This document shows, in pieces, positions 7,954 to 31,079 of a DNA stretch of 35,736 nt. Position 1 is the stretch's first letter. Each line of letters begins with the position of its first letter. The stretch is from the NCBI GenBank assembly GCA_012719175.1, contig JAAYAX010000001.1, positions 1 to 35,736 on the forward strand. Reading direction: 5' to 3'. The position numbers were made by a program, and so were the translations under genes. This stretch comes from Methanomassiliicoccus sp. GTDB taxonomy: Archaea; Thermoplasmatota; Thermoplasmata; Methanomassiliicoccales; Methanomassiliicoccaceae. The notes under the pieces are model-generated. The model did not search any database. It saw nothing but the letters and a program-made list of their open reading frames with translations, and was not told where the DNA came from.

Positions 7954-7982
7954 GTTTAGTTCCATAGATGGGGGGAAGTGAG

Positions 7983-9263
7983 ATGACCAAGGAGATCAAG
8001 CCCGAGCTCGAGGCGATGCTGGAGACACACCCCTGCTACAACGAGTGCGCTCACAGGAAGTTCGCCCGGATGCACCTGCCCATCGCCCCCAAGTGCAACA
8101 TCCAGTGCAACTTCTGCAACCGCAAGTACGATTGCACCAACGAGAGCCGGCCGGGGGTGACCTCAGATATACTGACGCCAGAGGAGGCGGTGGAGAAGAT
8201 CCGCTACGTGCGCACCAAGGTCCCCTACCTATCGGTCATCGGCATTGCCGGTCCTGGAGATCCATTAGCTAACGAGGAGACGTTCCGCACCCTCGAGCTG
8301 GTGGGTAAGGAGTTCCCTGACCTCACACTGTGCCTCAGCACCAACGGGCTGAACCTGCCGCAGAGCGTCGATCGCCTCAAGGCGCTGAACGTGAGGTTCA
8401 TAACCGTCACCATGAACGCCATAGATCCTGAGGTCGGCGCCAAGGTATACGACTTCGTCCACTACGAGGGAAGGAACTACCGGGGCATGGAGGCGGCCGC
8501 CATCCTCCTCCGGAACCAGCAGGAAGGGATAAGAAGGGCGGCGGAGGCGGGAATGCTAGTTAAAGTGAACTCGGTGCTCATACCGGGCATCAACGCCGAC
8601 CATCTACCCGCGGTGGCGAAGAGGGCCAAGGAGCTGGGGGCGTACATTATCAACATCCTACCGCTGATACCGGTCCCCGGAACCAAGTTCGAGAACCTCT
8701 CCGCGCCCACGGCCAAGCAGCGCCGGGAGCTGCAGGACCTGTGCGAAGTGGATATCAGACAGATGCGCCACTGCCGCCAGTGCCGCGCCGATGCCATCGG
8801 GCTCCTGGGCGAGGACCGTTCGGCGGAGTTCGCCCACTTCACCTGCGCCGCCCGGGCCAAGGGGGAGGAGGTCAACGTCCCGCTGGAGCTGGAGGGAAGC
8901 ACCAAGTACCGCATCGCCGTGGCCACCTCCGACGGGACATCGGTCGACCAGCACTATGGCCACGCCGAGAGGTTTCGCATCTACGAGGTGGAGGCGGGCA
9001 GGATCGACGATGCCGGGAGCGTGGACATGAGCGGCCAGCAGGATGTCCCGCTGTTCGGTCCGGACCATCGCCAGAAGATGGTGACCACGGCCGAGAGGCT
9101 GCGGGGCATGGACGCAGTGATCTCCCTCCAGTACGGGGATCCCGCCATCGGCGAGCTGCGCCAGAGGGGCATAATTCCTATAGAGGACCACGGTGATGTC
9201 CACCAGGCACTACGCCGGGCCGCGGACTCCATCTACAAGGAGAGGGCCGCGACCTTCGGGTGA
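7983..9263 (+). CDS. nifB: NifB radical SAM enzyme with C-terminal NifX-like domain
   Basis: NifB builds NifB-co, the 8Fe-9S-carbide precursor of nitrogenase cofactors, from two 4Fe-4S clusters and SAM. From ATG 7983 the protein is 426 residues. The N-terminal HPCYNECAH, the radical SAM triad C38-C42-C45 (CNIQCNFC), the following NRKYDCTNESRPGVTS and the late HCRQCRADAIGLLGED are all hallmark NifB sequences, so ligands for the RS and the two substrate clusters appear complete. Residues about 318-420 form a dinitrogenase-cofactor-binding domain of the NifX/NafY type (YRIAVATSDG, VDQHYGHAERF). Many methanogen NifB proteins, as I recall them, lack this domain. No nifHDKEN genes are in the window. 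The next gene starts within 10 bases of the stop. An upstream ATG (7968) is disfavoured by TATA spacing. Confidence 0.92.
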   Translation: MTKEIKPELEAMLETHPCYNECAHRKFARMHLPIAPKCNIQCNFCNRKYDCTNESRPGVTSDILTPEEAVEKIRYVRTKVPYLSVIGIAGPGDPLANEETFRTLELVGKEFPDLTLCLSTNGLNLPQSVDRLKALNVRFITVTMNAIDPEVGAKVYDFVHYEGRNYRGMEAAAILLRNQQEGIRRAAEAGMLVKVNSVLIPGINADHLPAVAKRAKELGAYIINILPLIPVPGTKFENLSAPTAKQRRELQDLCEVDIRQMRHCRQCRADAIGLLGEDRSAEFAHFTCAARAKGEEVNVPLELEGSTKYRIAVATSDGTSVDQHYGHAERFRIYEVEAGRIDDAGSVDMSGQQDVPLFGPDHRQKMVTTAERLRGMDAVISLQYGDPAIGELRQRGIIPIEDHGDVHQALRRAADSIYKERAATFG

Positions 9264-15484: not shown

Positions 15485-16324
15485 ATGGACCTGAAGATCA
15501 TCGACCTGGCCGAAAACCATGCTAAGTTCGTAATCTCGGGCATCCGTCCCGACCTGGCGAACGCCCTGCGTCGGGCGCTCATGACCGAGGTCCCCAAGAT
15601 GGCGATCGAGACCGTCGAGTTCCACCTAGGTCCTATCCGGGACGAGGACGGCAAGGAATGCGAGAGCGTCAGCCCTCTGTTCGATGAGATCATATCTCAT
15701 CGCCTGGGCCTGATCCCCATTCCCACCGATCCCGACCTGTATGTTTTCAAGGACAAGTGCACCTGCGAGGGCGAGGGTTGCCCCAACTGCACCATCATGT
15801 ACTCCCTCAACAAGAAGGGGCCATGCGACGTGTACTCCGGCGACCTGGAGCCGCTGGGCAGCCAGGAGCTGCGAGTGAAGGACGAGCTGATCCCCATAGT
15901 GAAGCTGGGGCCCAAGCAGGCCTTGCTCATCTATGCCTCGGCCGAGCTGGGAACCGCCAAGCGCCATGCCAAGTGGCAGGTCACCTCCGGGTGCGGCTAC
16001 CGCTACTACCCCACCGTGACCATCGATGCCAGCAAGTGTAACGTTTCCGCCGACTGCGTCAAGGTCTGCCCCCGAGGGGTCCTGGAAAAGCAGGACGGAA
16101 AGGTCGCGGTCGTGAACTTGGAGGCGTGCATACTTTGCGGCGCCTGCGTGGATGCGTGCATCAAGAACGCCATCACTATAAGCGGCGATGATTCCAAGTT
16201 CATCTTCGAGTTCGAAACCGACGGTTCCATGTCCTCGCGTGACACCCTCCGCAAGGCCCTCGAGGTCCTAGAGAAGGAGTTCGATGACTTCCGGGAAGAC
16301 GTCGGTAGCCTTATCGAAGGCTGA
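15485..16324 (+). CDS. rpoD: DNA-directed RNA polymerase subunit D with ferredoxin-like domain
   Basis: The 279-residue protein is the archaeal counterpart of eukaryotic Rpb3 and bacterial alpha. It forms a heterodimer with subunit L and anchors polymerase assembly. The N-terminal dimerisation motif SGIRPDLANALRRALMTEVP is at 18-37. A ferredoxin-like insertion at about 180-232 holds seven cysteines: C185, C191 and C195-P in the first motif, and C215, C218, C221 and C225 in the second. The second motif is complete. In the first, the position expected for the second ligand is not cysteine, so one 4Fe-4S and perhaps one 3Fe-4S cluster are possible. GAGGT lies 8 bases before the ATG. It is the last gene of the operon, followed directly by a T-rich terminator. 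Confidence 0.97.
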   Translation: MDLKIIDLAENHAKFVISGIRPDLANALRRALMTEVPKMAIETVEFHLGPIRDEDGKECESVSPLFDEIISHRLGLIPIPTDPDLYVFKDKCTCEGEGCPNCTIMYSLNKKGPCDVYSGDLEPLGSQELRVKDELIPIVKLGPKQALLIYASAELGTAKRHAKWQVTSGCGYRYYPTVTIDASKCNVSADCVKVCPRGVLEKQDGKVAVVNLEACILCGACVDACIKNAITISGDDSKFIFEFETDGSMSSRDTLRKALEVLEKEFDDFREDVGSLIEG

Positions 16325-22503: not shown

Positions 22504-23175
22504 GTTGTCGATGTTGGCGGTCTCCGAGGTCCACGTCAATTCCACGTTGCCCCGGCCGCGCGGCGATCTCCCCATGGTGCTGTTGGCCACCAACCAGAAC
22601 TGACGTGAGAGCTTTCCATCCTCCAGAACCAGCTGGTTAGCTCGCATAACCCGCTCCAGCTGTTGGGAGGTCAGCTCCGAGGCCTTGTACTGCCATATCA
22701 GCGTGAGGTTCGACGGCAAGCCAGACAGAGGCAGGGTGGACTGATATACGATGTGCGCCTCGAAGTCATCCGGCTCGTCCTTGAGCCACTCCAGGTCCCA
22801 GATGGTCACCAGACCTCTGTAGCCTTCGCTCAACGCTCTATCACGTTCGACGCTTATGACGTCCTTGAGGGCTTCCGGCCGGAACCTTCCGGACGCGTAG
22901 AACGGCCGCCTGGCCGGTACGATGATGAATCGTCCCTCGTCCATTGCTGCATCCAGAACACGGGAGCGCGACTGCTTGGGGTCATCGTCCCAGCGATCGC
23001 TGATCATAACCAACCGCGACTCGTCGTCCATCCAATTGAGGGCATCGATGATGACCCGGCCCTGGTCTGCCTTGGAATGATAGATGTGAGCGGCTTGGTC
23101 CCCTATGCGGAGGTCGTCGTACCATTTCCTAGCGGTCAACATCTCATCCCCTTGGAAGCGTTCATCGGTCACCAC
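22498..23175 (-). CDS. Stand-alone MEDS-domain protein (DcmR-like sensory domain)
   Basis: The 225-residue protein resembles the MEDS domain, a sensory module first described in methanogens and methylotrophs (DcmR) and often joined to histidine kinases or HTH domains. The near-N-terminal GDQAAHIYHSKADQGRVIIDALNWMDDESRLVMISDRW holds the characteristic histidine and the RecA/DUF-like strand. Then come a substrate-like loop (IIVPARRPFYASGRF) and the C-terminal TLIWQYKASELTSQQLERVMRANQLVLEDG, typical of the family. No kinase, HTH or membrane segment is attached. The GTG start at 23175 overlaps the end of the superoxide dismutase gene by 14 bases; an ATG at 23142 with GGGGATGAG just before it is an alternative. 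Position suggests co-expression with SOD. Confidence 0.75.
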   Translation of the reverse strand: MVTDERFQGDEMLTARKWYDDLRIGDQAAHIYHSKADQGRVIIDALNWMDDESRLVMISDRWDDDPKQSRSRVLDAAMDEGRFIIVPARRPFYASGRFRPEALKDVISVERDRALSEGYRGLVTIWDLEWLKDEPDDFEAHIVYQSTLPLSGLPSNLTLIWQYKASELTSQQLERVMRANQLVLEDGKLSRQFWLVANSTMGRSPRGRGNVELTWTSETANIDNL

Positions 23176-23791
23176 TCAGTATCTTCTCCAGGCGTTGGTC
23201 TACCGCACCCCAGTTGACAACGTTCCAGAAGCCGGCGGTATAACGGGCCTTCTCGTTCTTGTAGTCCAGATAGTACGCGTGCTCCCACACGTCCATGACC
23301 AGGAGGATGCGTTGACCGGGCACCACGAAGAGGTGGTGGTCCTTGATCTGGGTTATGAGCGGACGATGGGTATGCATGCAGAAGGTGAGCACGGCCCAGC
23401 CAGAGGACTCGACAGCGTTGGCGGTCTCCGAGAACTCCTTCATGAACCGCTCATAGCTCCCGAACTCCTTGTTCAGGACATCGCCTATGCGTCCGCCAGG
23501 GGTCCCCCCGCCGCCGGAGGAGGTAGGGGCCATGTTCTCCCAATAGAGCGAGTGCAGGATGTGACCACCGACGTTGAACGCCAGTGCTTGGGGCTCGCAC
23601 CTCATGTTCAGAACCGTACCGTCGCTGCGGGCCTTCTCCAGCTTCTCCAGCAAGGCATTGGCCTGATTGACGTACTTCTGATGATGACCATCATGGTGTA
23701 TCTTGAGCAGCGCTTCGGACAAGAAGGGCGACAGGTCCCCATATCCATATGGCAGTGCGGGCAGGGAGTATCTCATACTATTATCCACCAT
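23162..23791 (-). CDS. sod: Superoxide dismutase (Fe/Mn family)
   Basis: The enzyme converts superoxide to oxygen and hydrogen peroxide in the cytoplasm. From ATG 23791 it has 209 residues. The four metal ligands are visible: H32 (IHHDGHH), H80 (GGHILHSLYW), and the aspartate and histidine of MDVWEHAYYLDYKN. The residue four before H80 is glycine (G76), as in manganese or cambialistic enzymes, so metal choice is not settled. The open frame continues to 23899, but the TATA box at 23821-23830 predicts transcription from about 23798, which excludes that extension; ATG 23776 is another candidate. It lies directly downstream of peroxiredoxin, which would remove the peroxide it makes, and overlaps the MEDS gene. 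Confidence 0.94.
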   Translation of the reverse strand: MVDNSMRYSLPALPYGYGDLSPFLSEALLKIHHDGHHQKYVNQANALLEKLEKARSDGTVLNMRCEPQALAFNVGGHILHSLYWENMAPTSSGGGGTPGGRIGDVLNKEFGSYERFMKEFSETANAVESSGWAVLTFCMHTHRPLITQIKDHHLFVVPGQRILLVMDVWEHAYYLDYKNEKARYTAGFWNVVNWGAVDQRLEKILSGDR

Positions 23792-23820
23792 GATATCTGC
23801 CAATAGCTCAGAGCTTCCCG

Positions 23821-23830
23821 TATATTTAGT
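23821..23830 (-). promoter_or_regulatory. TATA box of the superoxide dismutase gene
   Basis: The minus strand reads ACTAAATATA, a strong match about 30-35 bases before the ATG at 23791. It abuts the T-rich terminator of the upstream peroxiredoxin gene. Confidence 0.6.
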
Positions 23831-23836
23831 TTTTCT

Positions 23837-23852
23837 AAAAAAAGTAGAAAAA
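23837..23852 (-). terminator. T-rich terminator after peroxiredoxin
   Basis: On the minus strand two T runs (TTTTTCTAC and TTTTTTTAG) follow the peroxiredoxin stop by about 20 bases. Archaeal termination at this kind of U-rich sequence is expected. The sod TATA box begins 7 bases further on. Confidence 0.6.
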
Positions 23853-23871
23853 GGGGTCCGTCCAGGACCGT

Positions 23872-24531
23872 TCACAGGGAGCGGTAGCAGAACCACCAAT
23901 CGTAGTTGTCATACGTCTTCTTCCTCTCCTTGGCTGTGGCCTCGTCGGCCGCTGACCTCACTATCACCTTATCGCCCAGAAGCTCGTTCTTGGGCCAGTT
24001 GGCGGGCATGGCCACGTTGTTGGCGTCCGAGACCTGGAGAGCCTTCAGGGCGCGGAGGATCTCCTCCATGTTGCGCCCGACCTCCTGGGGGTAGTATATT
24101 ATGAGCCTTATCACACCCTTGTCGTCCACTATGAACACCGAACGCACGGTGTTGCTTCCCTTGCCCGGATGCACCATACCAAGCCGGGTCGCCACCGTCC
24201 CCAGGGCATCGGCGATTATCGGAAAGGGGACCTCCACATCCAGGTTCTCATTGATCCATTCCACCCACTTAATATGAGAGTGCACTTGGTCAATAGAGAG
24301 GCCGATCAGGTCGGTGTTGAGCTTATTGAAATCATCGCTCATCTTCGTGAAGCTGTAGAACTCCGTGGTACAGACTGGCGTGAAGTCCCCGGGGTGGCTG
24401 AACAATATGAACCATTTCCCGGCCTTGTCCTCGGGCAATGTCATCTTACCGTGAGTCGTCCATACCTCCATGTGCGGGAACATGTCCCCGATCAATGTGG
24501 TCTCCCTTTCAGCATCTTTCGATTCTACCAT
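23872..24531 (-). CDS. Peroxiredoxin (Prx6-type)
   Basis: The enzyme reduces hydrogen peroxide and organic peroxides. At 219 residues it matches archaeal Prx6-type peroxiredoxins. The peroxidatic cysteine is C54 in FTPVCTTEF, preceded by the FSHPGDF strand. The second conserved block [21 protein letters not shown] and the C-terminal WWFCYRSL with C215 (a possible resolving cysteine) are present. There is no signal peptide. It precedes sod on the same strand, separated by a T-rich terminator and the sod promoter, so the two are neighbours with separate promoters rather than a strict operon. Two short inverted repeats upstream could carry regulation. Confidence 0.95.
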
Positions 24532-26268: not shown

Positions 26269-26334
26269 GCATTCTGTCATATTCTGCCTCCCGGCGACCG
26301 CATGGCTGAGCACTTGGCCGCACTATCACCAAAA

Positions 26335-26342
26335 ACATATTA
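26335..26342 (+). promoter_or_regulatory. TATA box of the SelB-like gene
   Basis: ACATATTA, after an A-rich stretch, is centred about 28 bases before the ATG at 26367, predicting a leaderless transcript. Confidence 0.5.
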
Positions 26343-26366
26343 TGCGTTCCATTTTTACCGTCCCTC

Positions 26367-27326
26367 ATGGCCAATCTCAACGTGGCGGTCATCGGTCCCA
26401 ATGATTACGCCAAGGACCTGGGTAAAAAGGGTACTGTCTCAGACATCACCCTGTACGATCTCAAGCAGGGAACGGACACGGTGACCTTTATAGAGGCGAC
26501 CAACTACCCCGATCGCCTGGCGCCCCTTTTCTATACCGCCTCCATGGCCGACCTCGCGCTGGTGGTCATCGACGCCATCAACTCCCAGCTGGGCGAGTGC
26601 ATGGTAATGCTGCACTGCGCAGACGTCAAGAAGGGCTACATCGTGCTGCGCAACTACCTCACGCCGGAGCAGGTGGCACCCCTGACCAAAGGCACCGTCC
26701 TGGAATCCTACACTTTCATCGAGGACGATAAGAACGCCATCCGTGAGAGGCTGCTGGCGGATACTAAGGCCATCACCTCCCCGGGAGAGCCGGGGAAGGG
26801 AGCGGTGACCATAGACCATTTCTTCAACGTGAAGGGCGTGGGTACGGTGATCCTGGGCACGGTGGCCTACGGCCGGATCGTGCGCCATGACGACCTCAAG
26901 GTGCTTCCCACGAAGAGGACGGCACTGGTGCGCTCCATCCAAAAGCACGATGACGACTACCAGGATGCCGTGGCCGGCGACAGGGTGGGTCTGGCCCTCA
27001 AGAACATCGACGTGGAGCAGCTGGACCGGGGGCACGTGCTCACCCTCGACGACAAGGTCCAATGCGGCAGTGAGATCACCGCCCCGGCGGAGCTGGTCAA
27101 CTATTGGAAAACGCCCCTGAAGGAGGGCATGGTCCTGCACCTGGGTCACTGGATGCAGTTCATCAGCGCCCGGGTGGAGTCCGTGCAGGACAGCGGGGAC
27201 TTTCGGCGGCCCACGGTGAAGCTCTCCCTGGACAAGCCGTTGGTGCATCCTCCGGGGAGCAGGGCCGTCCTCATGTACCTTGAGGGCGGGAAGCTGAGGG
27301 TCATCGGCTCTTTGACCCTGACCTGA
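26367..27326 (+). CDS. SelB-like elongation factor homologue (aSelBL) with degenerate GTPase domain
   Basis: The 319-residue protein follows the EF-Tu/SelB layout but has lost the nucleotide-binding signatures. The G1 position reads IGPNDYAKDLGKKG instead of G-x4-GK-S/T. The switch II DxPGH is replaced by ATNYPDRL, followed by the expected helix and strand FYTASMADLALVVIDA. The NKxD slot reads HCAD. Domain II is recognisable (FFNVKGVGTVILGTVAYGRI, then IQKHDDDYQDAVAGDRVGLAL), and so is a domain III-like end (RPTVKLSLDKPLVHPPGSRAV). A family of archaeal SelB-like proteins present in organisms without selenocysteine has been described, and this looks like a member. Its role is unknown; a link with pyrrolysine or tRNA binding is speculation. 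Transcribed alone, with its own TATA box. Confidence 0.82.
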   Translation: MANLNVAVIGPNDYAKDLGKKGTVSDITLYDLKQGTDTVTFIEATNYPDRLAPLFYTASMADLALVVIDAINSQLGECMVMLHCADVKKGYIVLRNYLTPEQVAPLTKGTVLESYTFIEDDKNAIRERLLADTKAITSPGEPGKGAVTIDHFFNVKGVGTVILGTVAYGRIVRHDDLKVLPTKRTALVRSIQKHDDDYQDAVAGDRVGLALKNIDVEQLDRGHVLTLDDKVQCGSEITAPAELVNYWKTPLKEGMVLHLGHWMQFISARVESVQDSGDFRRPTVKLSLDKPLVHPPGSRAVLMYLEGGKLRVIGSLTLT

Positions 27327-27373: not shown

Positions 27374-28285
27374 TCAACTCTTGCGCACAAGGTACTCGGC
27401 GATCCCGTAGCCCTTCTGGCCGTTGAAGGTGTACTCAGAGAGGGTCTCGTGCATCACTGACACGCTCTTGCCGTCCCGGCCAGGGAAGGGCATCATGACC
27501 TCCCGCAGGACCTCAGCGGTCACCTTGTGCTTTCCGCCATCCTTGTCCACAAGGTTCATGGCCAGCGACCTCGGCGTTCCGTCAGGGTCAAGGACCGTGC
27601 GGATGTCCGCCTTCACCAGGGGGATGTTCCTCCCGTTGATGTGGAAGAACCCCGCGGACACCTCTCCTCCCTCCACGAACAGCTTGGTGACGTTGAGGGC
27701 CAGGTTCCGGGAGAACTGGGCGGTGAGCCATATCCACATCTTGGGAGCGTTCCAGTCCCTCACTCCCCAGGAGTGGTCCCGCTCCCCCAGGCCCTGGATG
27801 TCGAAGTGCTCCTCCCCCACGGTGAGCGTTCCCGTGGCCATCCCGAACTGTTCAAGATGCTCGGAGGCAACGCTTCTGGACATGGCCTCCCCCTCCTTGT
27901 CCACGCTATCCCGGTAGTCGTACATCTTGTTCAAGGACTCGAACTCCAGGGAGAATTTGACCTTGACCGGTACCGGCCCCTTGTCCTCCATCCGGGCCAT
28001 GGCGCCGTTGAACTCCAGCTTCCACCGTTTCTCCGGCTCCAGCATGTGGAAGCGCAGGGAACTGACGTTCAGGCTCCCGTCCCCGAGGACCTCCATCTCC
28101 TTCTTGCCGATGACCGAGCCGTCGGGCATCATGATGAAGCAGAACATCGAGCGCTCGTCCATGTTGGGCTTCAGACCGATGCGCATGAACATGCACAGGT
28201 CGTGCGCCTGATCATAGAAGTTGAAGTAGAAGCTCTCGTTCCATTCCTTGTCCGCCCCAGGTTGATGCATGGTATCGCTGTTCAT
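27374..28285 (-). CDS. AttH/CrtC-type lipocalin-like protein
   Basis: The 303-residue protein looks like the lipocalin-like families that include AttH, hydroxyneurosporene synthase (CrtC) and DUF7064/7065 proteins. The clearest mark is GERDHSWGVRDW near residue 165, followed by W-rich strands (KMWIWLTAQFSRNLALN) and a late beta-rich half. The N-terminal half (FYFNFYDQAHDLCMFMRIGL) is the matching second barrel. There is no signal peptide. Such proteins act on isoprenoids or other lipids, sometimes as hydratases, but I cannot assign a reaction. Its ATG overlaps the stop of the phosphotransferase gene by 3 bases (ATGA), with GGAGG 8 bases upstream, so the two are translationally coupled and probably act in one pathway. 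Confidence 0.7.
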   Translation of the reverse strand: MNSDTMHQPGADKEWNESFYFNFYDQAHDLCMFMRIGLKPNMDERSMFCFIMMPDGSVIGKKEMEVLGDGSLNVSSLRFHMLEPEKRWKLEFNGAMARMEDKGPVPVKVKFSLEFESLNKMYDYRDSVDKEGEAMSRSVASEHLEQFGMATGTLTVGEEHFDIQGLGERDHSWGVRDWNAPKMWIWLTAQFSRNLALNVTKLFVEGGEVSAGFFHINGRNIPLVKADIRTVLDPDGTPRSLAMNLVDKDGGKHKVTAEVLREVMMPFPGRDGKSVSVMHETLSEYTFNGQKGYGIAEYLVRKS

Positions 28286-30912
28286 GTTAATTCCTCCCCG
28301 ATGATGTAAATGGTGCCGTCGTTCCCGTCAAGGGTAACGCGCTGGCCGGTCCTGAAGAAGGTGGTGGCGTCCTTTACCGCGGTGACCGATGGGATCCCGT
28401 ACTCTCGAGAGACCACCGCTCCATGGGATAGTATGCCTCCGGTCTCCGTCACCAGCCCGCCCAGCTTGGAGAACACCGCCGTCCACCCGGGATCGGTGTT
28501 GGAGGTGACCATGATCTCTCCCTCCCGCACCAGCGGAAGGTTCTCGATGGTCTCCACGACCCTGATGTTCCCCGTGACCACGCCTGGGCTCGCCGAGACG
28601 CCGCTGACCCGGATGGTGTCGGGACCGCGGACCACGGTATCGTCGAACTCCACGTTCCCTCTCAGGAACTTCGGCGGCAGGACGTTCTCGTAACGGTCGA
28701 AGTCCGCCCGGCGCTCGTCGACCGCCGCCTTCATGTCGCCGCCTTTCTCCAGGAGCTCGAAGGCCTCCTCCTTGGTGAGGAAGAATATGTCCTCCTTCCT
28801 CTCCAGCAGCCCCCGGGAGGCAAGCCTGCGCCCGTACTCCAGGAACAGGACCCTCCAGCGGCGGATGATGTGGTCAAGGTAGAAGCGCTGGTTCTCCCGG
28901 AACATGAGGTAGGTCTGGGCGAAATGCAGGACCGGGCGGAACACCATGTTCCGCAGATAGCCGTAGCGGAGGCGGGCGATCTTCTCCAGGACCACTTTCT
29001 CCGTCTCCTTCCTCTCCCTTATGCGCTCCTTCTCCAGCTTCTCCAGGTCCCCTACCTCCGAGGACATGAGGGAGCGCACCACGTCGATCACCAGGGTGGG
29101 GTCGTCGGCCCAGCGGGGGAAGTACATCTCACGGGTGTGAGAACGGTGCCCGTAATCCTTCAGGAAGGCTTCGAGCTCCTGCCCGAACGACCTCATCCTC
29201 GGATCCACGGACAGGGTTTCCAATGCCTCCCTGGAGCTCAAGGAGGTCAACCGCTCACGGACCGCCTCGTCCTTCTGAGCGACCTTGGCCAGCTTGGCGA
29301 TGGCGATATTGGTCTTGATGGTCTTGTTGTCGTCCAGGCCGGATATGAGCTTGGAGTATAGGAGACCGCTGCGGTCGTCAAGCCAGTCCATAAGCCACCT
29401 CTTGACCATGAGGTTGGTACCGATGGAGTGAGTGACCATCCCATAGCGGATGAGCTGGAAATGCTTGATGGATGCCTGCCGCAAGGTCATATACTCCGCC
29501 TGCAGCTGGGCATCGTCCAGTGCGGCGAGGTCCAGGGAATCGAAGCGCTCGGCCACCTTAATGAACGAGGCCGCCCACTTCCTGTAGGCCTTATCGGTGC
29601 GCAGTATCACGCCCTCATTGTCCAGGAGGGTGATCCGAACCTCGGCCCATAGCCGCGCCGCGATCCTGGTGTCCGCCCGGGCGATGCGATCCTGGTCCTT
29701 CTGGGGGAAGTAGTTCAATAACTCGTTGGTGCGCGAAAACTTGGGGTTGTAGGTGAACACTTCCTCCAGCACCGAGGCGTTGAAGTAGATGTGCCCTTTA
29801 TGGACCTTCAACAGCTCCTTGTCCGTCAGCCCCCAGTAGCCCATGATCTCCGAGCCCTCATGGTTGACGTACTTGGTCAGCATCTCCCCCAGCAGGGAGA
29901 AGAAGAGAGGCGATGTTACATCGGACCAGTACTCGTCGCCATAACCCCGCGTCCATAAGGTGTCGCCATCATTGGAGAGGTTCGTGATCGGTCGGGATTG
30001 GAGGATGAAAAGGTGTTCTCCCTCGATGGCCCACTCCACGTCCTGGGGGGCGCCGAAATAAGACTCGATCTTACGGCCCATCTTGGCGACCATGGTGATC
30101 TCGTCTGTGGTGAGGGACGGCGCCATCTGCCTCTCTTCCGTCATTCTCACCGACCTCGAGCCATCTGAAGAGAGGAATATGCCGGTTACCTTACGGTTCA
30201 CCGTCCGCTCTATGAGCTTCCCGGTGAGCTTGTCGCAAATGTACCTGTCCGGTGTGACCAACCCAGAGGCGATGGACTCTCCAAGTCCCCATGAGGACTC
30301 CATGACAATGCGGTCCTTCCTGCCGGACACGGGATCGGAAGTGAACATTATGCCTGAGGAGCGAGCGTCCACCATACGCTGGACCACCACGGCGATGCCG
30401 CTGCTAATCTGATCGACACCAGCCTTGTGACGGTAGGAGATGGCCCGGGTGTTCCAAAAGGAGGCCCAGCACTTGCGCACGTTCTCGCTGACATTGGGAC
30501 GGCGTATGTTGAGGTAGGTGTCCTGCTGACCAGCGAAGGACGCCGTGGCCAGGTCCTCCGCGACAGCCGAGGAGCGAACAGACCACAGGGACTCGGGATC
30601 GATGTCGGCCAGGGCGAGGTCGAGACCGGCCACCACCTCTCCAGTGTCGATGTCGGAGAACAGACCCTTGATCGTTCCAGAGGCCTTCTCCACCGAGGCC
30701 TCGTCCTGGAAGTCGATGGACGACAGCGCCTCCACGATCTTCTGGCGGATCCCCTCACGGCCCAGATACTCATCGTAGGCCTCCACGGGGATGACCAGAC
30801 CTGGTGGTACGGGAAAGCCTCCGGCGATGAGCCTGCCGAGATTGGCGGCCTTGCCCCCAACCTCCGTAGCCTGCTTATCGTCGATCGAACCGAGCTTCAT
30901 TATGTGGAGCAT
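28282..30912 (-). CDS. Rifampin phosphotransferase-like dikinase (not PEP synthase)
   Basis: From ATG 30912 the protein has 876 residues. The N-terminal 330 or so form an ATP-grasp domain like pyruvate phosphate dikinase (GGKAANLGRLIAGGFPVPPG, VRSSAVAEDLATASFAGQQD, QRMVDARSSGIMFTSDPVSG). A long middle region follows. The C-terminal swivelling domain carries the phosphohistidine as H830 in GGILSHGAVVSREYGIPSV. The chain stops 46 residues later, so the PEP/pyruvate-binding TIM barrel of true PEP synthase is absent. This is the layout of rifampin phosphotransferase (Rph, about 870 residues), which transfers the beta-phosphate of ATP to a small molecule. Archaeal RNA polymerase is naturally insensitive to rifampicin, so the real substrate is probably different. 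A TATA element at 30958-30965 supports starts at 30912 or 30900. The lipocalin-like gene overlaps its stop. Confidence 0.87.
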   Translation of the reverse strand: MLHIMKLGSIDDKQATEVGGKAANLGRLIAGGFPVPPGLVIPVEAYDEYLGREGIRQKIVEALSSIDFQDEASVEKASGTIKGLFSDIDTGEVVAGLDLALADIDPESLWSVRSSAVAEDLATASFAGQQDTYLNIRRPNVSENVRKCWASFWNTRAISYRHKAGVDQISSGIAVVVQRMVDARSSGIMFTSDPVSGRKDRIVMESSWGLGESIASGLVTPDRYICDKLTGKLIERTVNRKVTGIFLSSDGSRSVRMTEERQMAPSLTTDEITMVAKMGRKIESYFGAPQDVEWAIEGEHLFILQSRPITNLSNDGDTLWTRGYGDEYWSDVTSPLFFSLLGEMLTKYVNHEGSEIMGYWGLTDKELLKVHKGHIYFNASVLEEVFTYNPKFSRTNELLNYFPQKDQDRIARADTRIAARLWAEVRITLLDNEGVILRTDKAYRKWAASFIKVAERFDSLDLAALDDAQLQAEYMTLRQASIKHFQLIRYGMVTHSIGTNLMVKRWLMDWLDDRSGLLYSKLISGLDDNKTIKTNIAIAKLAKVAQKDEAVRERLTSLSSREALETLSVDPRMRSFGQELEAFLKDYGHRSHTREMYFPRWADDPTLVIDVVRSLMSSEVGDLEKLEKERIRERKETEKVVLEKIARLRYGYLRNMVFRPVLHFAQTYLMFRENQRFYLDHIIRRWRVLFLEYGRRLASRGLLERKEDIFFLTKEEAFELLEKGGDMKAAVDERRADFDRYENVLPPKFLRGNVEFDDTVVRGPDTIRVSGVSASPGVVTGNIRVVETIENLPLVREGEIMVTSNTDPGWTAVFSKLGGLVTETGGILSHGAVVSREYGIPSVTAVKDATTFFRTGQRVTLDGNDGTIYIIGEELT

Positions 30913-30957
30913 GTGCACCCTGCCTCGAGAACCGATAGTCTGGTATCCTGAAGGGCC

Positions 30958-30965
30958 ATTAATAA
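30958..30965 (-). promoter_or_regulatory. TATA box of the Rph-like/AttH-like operon
   Basis: The minus strand reads TTATTAAT, predicting transcription from about 30935. It excludes the open-frame extension up to 31053 and leaves a leader of about 23 bases. Confidence 0.5.
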
Positions 30966-31079
30966 CCGCTCCCTGCATCCTCGGAGGGTCGAATGGTGGC
31001 TTCGGTGAAGGAACAGCACTTGACGTACACTCCACGCAAAAGGGGTGGGTCAAGGCCGCCCTCGGTCATCCTTTGCTCA

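Follow-up and report, generated by a model that had tools for sequence, protein, structure and literature searches.

An archaeal SelB-like protein of Methanomassiliicoccus sp. that has lost its nucleotide site and may act as an aminoacyl-tRNA clamp

The window analyzed here, a 35,736-nt stretch of Methanomassiliicoccus sp. DNA, contains a forward-strand ORF (26367–27326, ATG start, 319 aa) that encodes a 'divergent' aSelBL (aEF-X/MM1309-like) protein, a typical member of a described archaeal family, and the gene is real and under strong purifying selection. The nucleotide site is lost and the aminoacyl pocket is kept, and we consider it probable that the protein binds aminoacyl-tRNA without a nucleotide. 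In the full statement of the proposed function, to which we give roughly even credence, it would be a pseudo-GTPase, that is, an EF-Tu/SelB-type clamp held closed in a 'GTP-like' form with no nucleotide. The switch I strip would sit as a fixed wedge in place of GTP, so that the clamp could grip the acceptor end of one aminoacyl-tRNA and keep its ester bond and side chain safe from hydrolysis or oxidation. The likeliest ligand in Methanomassiliicoccus sp. would be Cys-tRNACys made by the ordinary CysRS, which the clamp would hand over to EF1A or another user by exchange, not release through GTP hydrolysis on the ribosome.

Searches with the window protein place it firmly in this family. The PDB sequence search (phmmer) returned MM1309 from Methanosarcina mazei first (3wnb, E = 5e-31) and an archaeal SelB second (4ac9), and Foldseek ranked the predicted model in the same order, with 3wnb first (TMq 0.85, 28% identity) and archaeal SelB next. 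Among EF1-type factors, both sequence and fold are thus closest to SelB/MM1309, in agreement with the first-pass annotation, which had called the product SelB-like and named the aSelBL family. Its statement that domains II and III remain is likewise borne out by Pfam, the PDB sequence search and Foldseek. The only Pfam match above cut-off is EF-Tu domain 2 (GTP_EFTU_D2, E = 3e-11), which, with conservation, delimits domain II at residues 144–232 (26796–27062, forward strand, as for all features within the gene); the whole-length fold match and the alignment assign residues 233–319 (27063–27323), with the clade-specific motifs GHWMQ and GGKLR, to domain III. The NCBIfam selB model matches below its cut-off. 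The ORF is the sole significant match in its own genome (2.42 Mb, 99.6% complete) and is therefore single-copy; the nearest named relative is from Methanomassiliicoccus sp. QR_Bin.16 (92%), and mcrA, pylS and the way they are arranged are consistent with Methanomassiliicoccales.

The aSelBL family and its 'divergent' subgroup were defined by Atkinson et al. 2011 (PMC3037878), and the window protein shows no essential difference from that subgroup. It stops with domain III, lacking the SECIS/SBP-reading C-terminal extension; G1 is disrupted by a 5-residue deletion (4–5 aa in the family) and the switch II His is lost to Tyr47; the switch I consensus KGTxx is present as K21-G22-T23-V24-S25 and the pocket signature Asp-His...Arg as D150, H151 and R206 (changed in family f2); and the stretch from G4 to G5 is shortened, the region of MM1309 L134–N137 having no counterpart, which corresponds to the 10–14 aa G-domain deletion that marks the subgroup. 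The aSelB of Methanococcus maripaludis (4AC9) shares the fold and the same pocket residues (D191/H192/R247 for D150, H151 and R206) but is a selenocysteine factor whose GTPase motifs are intact and which carries a C-terminal extension. EF-Tu/EF1A shares the three-domain architecture and the CCA pocket residues, whereas the window protein is much shorter and has neither the nucleotide site nor the catalytic His. A role as a selenocysteine factor SelB was rejected, as no SelD scored above cut-off in this genome or in any of 41 genomes searched.

The first-pass annotation had described the GTPase motifs as all destroyed, with the G1, switch II and NKxD slots replaced. Aligned with MM1309, the window protein has indeed lost nearly all GTP-contact residues of that relative, and it lacks the G1, G3 His and G4 with which canonical translational GTPases bind and hydrolyze GTP. 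The P-loop stretch IIGTEKSGRTSLAANLGKK of MM1309 (19 aa, I6 to K24) is reduced to VIGPNDYAKDLGKK (14 aa, residues 8–21, 26388–26429), such that the phosphate-binding K11–R14 have no counterpart and N12 and D13 stand opposite T15 and S16. The G3/switch II slot reads EATNYPDRL (residues 43–51, 26493–26519), opposite DAHSYP in MM1309 and DAPGH in aSelB, with Asp46 of MM1309 replaced by Glu43 and the catalytic-His position occupied by tyrosine in both proteins (Tyr50 in MM1309, Tyr47 here). The guanine-base contacts Asp103 and Thr136 of MM1309 are missing. The replacement of G1 and of the switch II/G3 slot therefore stands; the NKxD motif is also lost, but not at HCAD (residues 83–86, 26613–26624), which aligns upstream of the G4 position and precedes the G4 strand. 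The true G4 slot is R95-N96-Y97-L98 (26649–26660), opposite T100–D103 (T-R-S-D103) of MM1309, where the guanine-binding Asp is gone. Nor does 'all destroyed' extend to the G2/switch I strip K20–D26, which is highly conserved. The expectation that the protein cannot cycle GTP normally is supported by MM1309, which binds GTP at 0.43 µM and has no GTPase activity (PMC4329189), and by the window protein being without even the contacts of MM1309.

In 11 of 12 relative pairs, the dN/dS of the G domain is 0.05–0.22, and in the twelfth 0.01, with values of the same order in domains II and III. These values, together with a shortened P-loop that recurs in nearly all sampled relatives except MM1309, argue that the motif loss is due to neither chance nor decay. 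The lost motifs on their own would fit a decaying, pseudogene-like remnant with a structural role or none; given the selection values, which refute it for the order as a whole, and one intact aSelBL copy in nearly all complete relatives, we regard this reading as having a negligible probability.

The retained parts of the protein are those that in MM1309 serve the aminoacyl pocket and the contact between domains. The switch I strip K20-K-G-T-V-S-D26 (26424–26444) is near-invariant in 70 relatives at K20, G22, T23 and D26, and few stretches of the protein are as conserved as K20-K21-G22-T23-x-S25-D26. From the MM1309 structures (PMC4329189), this strip would form the wall of the aminoacyl pocket and the lock between domains I and II; its residues there touch Arg234, His179 and Arg249 of domain 2, whose equivalents R206, H151 and R221 are present here. 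The CCA/aminoacyl pocket is kept (D150, H151, F153, V155, V161, L163, Q192, R206 and R221), and G22, T23, S25, D26, D150, H151, F153, L163, R206 and R221 of pocket and lock are shared with MM1309. Two departures from MM1309/EF-Tu speak against the clamp model: switch I S27 is V24, and Lys90 of EF-Tu, which contacts the 5'-phosphate (K55 in MM1309), is A52.

The AlphaFold2 model (42 sequences; pLDDT 94.2, pTM 0.91) has all three domains complete, with just a four-residue helix remaining after the former P-loop. The first-pass annotation had tied its reading to a Ras-like G domain, and an N-terminal domain of this kind is present in the predicted fold, minus the nucleotide site. Foldseek scores are about 0.79 for closed forms of EF-Tu (1exm, TM 0.79) and about 0.49 for the open-form matches 1aip, 9v5s and 7vmc. 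A closed, GTP-like EF-Tu/SelB fold is accordingly what the model predicts, although the AlphaFold training set may favour the closed state. A rival reading is a true alternative elongation factor that, perhaps under stress, would deliver aminoacyl-tRNA to the ribosomal A site with no need for GTP hydrolysis. The authors of the MM1309 study listed this option, and domain II is the most conserved part of the protein, including regions that touch the small subunit in EF-Tu (Atkinson 2011, PMC3037878). However, the protein lacks both elements that couple decoding to release, the switch II His and the nucleotide site, and a clamp unable to open would block accommodation, so that we consider such a factor unlikely.

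The clamp model draws its ligand from MM1309 (3WNB, 3WNC, 3WND; Yanagisawa et al. 2015, PMC4329189), a 'conservative' aSelBL that is like the window protein in fold, pocket and switch I lock but, unlike it, keeps a P-loop variant and Asp103. The apo, GDP and GMPPNP structures of MM1309 are identical and closed, with the switches serving domain contacts, and MM1309 binds and protects Cys-tRNACys, extending its half-life from 80 to 300 min (PMC4329189). These Cys-tRNA data come from MM1309 only, whose identity to the window protein over the fold alignment is 28%; GTP was present in the assay, and no other tRNAs were reported as tested. A literature search on the aSelBL family names found no later functional study. 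By analogy with MM1309, we infer that the fixed closed state and Cys-tRNACys binding may extend to the divergent subgroup. Of the options in the first-pass annotation, a tRNA-binding chaperone is the one best supported, through the predicted fold, the kept pocket and, again by analogy, the MM1309 data. CysRS scores above cut-off in the genome of the window and in 37 of 41 relatives. A connection with the indirect, SepRS-dependent Cys pathway was rejected, as no SepRS was found above cut-off in this genome or in the order sample (41 relatives). No gene neighbours tying aSelBL to cysteine were found.

Another of the annotation's options was an adapter for pyrrolysine, which would deliver Pyl-tRNAPyl to UAG codons; it had proposed looking for pylTSBCD and for co-occurrence across genomes. 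The first search was positive: this genome carries two pylS copies and two complete pylTSBCD clusters (L161, G000:C4:399000-413000; L162, G000:C14:1-16000). The second spoke against the idea. In a phylum sample of 390 genomes, aSelBL occurs in 286 and pylS in 37, all of the latter in the order of the window and each with aSelBL, whereas at least 249 of the 286 aSelBL genomes lack pylS, including the one-contig genome G027 of the same order, so that aSelBL does not follow the pyrrolysine system as a specific factor would. Within the order, the pylS/aSelBL association (37/0 versus 16/3) is confounded by phylogeny. Moreover, Pyl was judged too large for the pocket of MM1309 (PMC4329189), and ordinary EF-Tu handles tRNAPyl in vitro according to work cited in PMC3037878 and PMC3941956. 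A pyrrolysine adapter is thus highly improbable. As separate observations, the PylRS proteins of the two clusters share 58% identity, a comparable pyl duplication being published for Methanomassiliicoccus luminyensis (PMC9071458, PMC3941956), and in genus g11, alone among the genera checked, some 5 kb separate aSelBL from pylS, pylDCBS running on the opposite strand (L163:3281-9901, L164).

A tight link to methanogenesis was also rejected: two nearly complete f6 genomes have neither aSelBL nor pylS, yet carry mcrA, and aSelBL is common in other classes. The tree places the window protein with families f1 and f3, close to sequences from Methanomicrobiales, Methanothrix and Bathyarchaeota (fork 86/95), while most f2 sequences stand apart as a separate, fully supported clade. 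This arrangement suggests aSelBL transfer between methanogen lineages, as in Atkinson et al., in a tree with some deep forks open and very long outgroups.

Within the window, a putative archaeal BRE/TATA box (CCAAAAACATATTAT, 26329–26343, forward strand), read by eye and with similar elements in loci L039 and L003, ends ~24 nt before the ATG and suggests that aSelBL is transcribed from a promoter of its own into a leaderless mRNA. The upstream neighbours of aSelBL in f1 are an MFS exporter and, on the other strand, peroxiredoxin and superoxide dismutase genes. In the window, the latter two are a 1-Cys-type peroxiredoxin (23872–24531, reverse strand; Pfam/NCBIfam and synteny), kept in most of the f1 loci whose flanks are long enough and also close to aSelBL in a few loci of f3, and an Fe/Mn superoxide dismutase (23162–23899, reverse strand; Pfam and synteny), in the same neighbourhood in f1. 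They would fit, weakly, a role in protection from oxidation or in oxidative stress. Across orders, no conserved aSelBL neighbour was found within about 5 kb; the trp genes near aSelBL in Methanothrix are on the opposite strand and clade-specific. Elsewhere in the window, a PEP-synthase-like gene (28282–31053), for which rifamycin phosphotransferase and undecylprodigiosin ligase RedH models score well, all below their cut-offs, adjoins a DUF7064/7065 (Rv3169-like) gene, a pair kept in several f1 relatives. The window also encodes an archaeal RNA polymerase subunit D with 4Fe-4S ferredoxin domains (15485–16324) and a radical SAM protein with a C-terminal dinitrogenase iron-molybdenum cofactor-type domain (7968–9263).

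Family f2, probably Methanomethylophilaceae to judge by its PylRS, which is closest to a solved PylRS from that group, differs in both pocket and gene context. In 15 of its 16 sequences, His is replaced by Ser (H151S) and Arg by His (R206H), the sixteenth having Glu and Arg; this contradicts the pocket Arg published as universal in aSelBL (PMC3037878). A comparison of these 15 f2 proteins with 24 others of the order gave fixed differences at only 6 of 319 positions, among them the pocket positions 151 and 206; by a rough estimate, six positions would include two of the three pocket residues by chance about once in 1000 cases, a figure that can serve only as a guide because the sequences are related. 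All 16 f2 loci, and one f5 genome, carry a codirectional run of a PaaK-like ligase, an ACT-pair protein and aSelBL, with an ACT–aSelBL gap of mostly 3–14 bp; these counts come from tblastn because GC-corrected ORF calling misses aSelBL in 22 loci. Both the pocket change and the gene run appear to be unreported. The run (L163:1541-5557, L173-L175, L204-L212, L217, L218, L110) is often trailed by a second PaaK, and the aSelBL of Methanoregula sp. UBA276 (L112) has Ala at the pocket His position as an isolated pocket change.

Gene run and pocket change together would fit a role outside translation, in the supply or regulation of aminoacyl-tRNA, for example as a charging sensor for an aromatic-acid pathway. 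The run is, however, absent from all 12 f1, f3 and f4 loci, so that an aromatic-pathway role would not directly apply to the window gene, and f5 has the run with an unchanged pocket; we hold this reading to be rather improbable. Since positions 151 and 206 differ between clades, it is unlikely that all members of the family share one ligand. That the two f2 changes occurred together and stayed fixed within the PaaK-ACT run may point to a change of ligand. A similarly long shot is that aSelBL is a family of nucleotide-free clamps with a pocket re-tuned by clade, f2 having moved from Cys-tRNA to another, perhaps aromatic, aminoacyl-tRNA for sensing and not for translation.

The family is widespread in archaea, and the one biochemical study found concerns MM1309, which has kept GTP binding. 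The f2 pocket swap and the PaaK-ACT run make the ligand question directly testable, and nucleotide-free tRNA binding by a translation-factor fold, if true, would separate the holding of tRNA from the GTPase clock.
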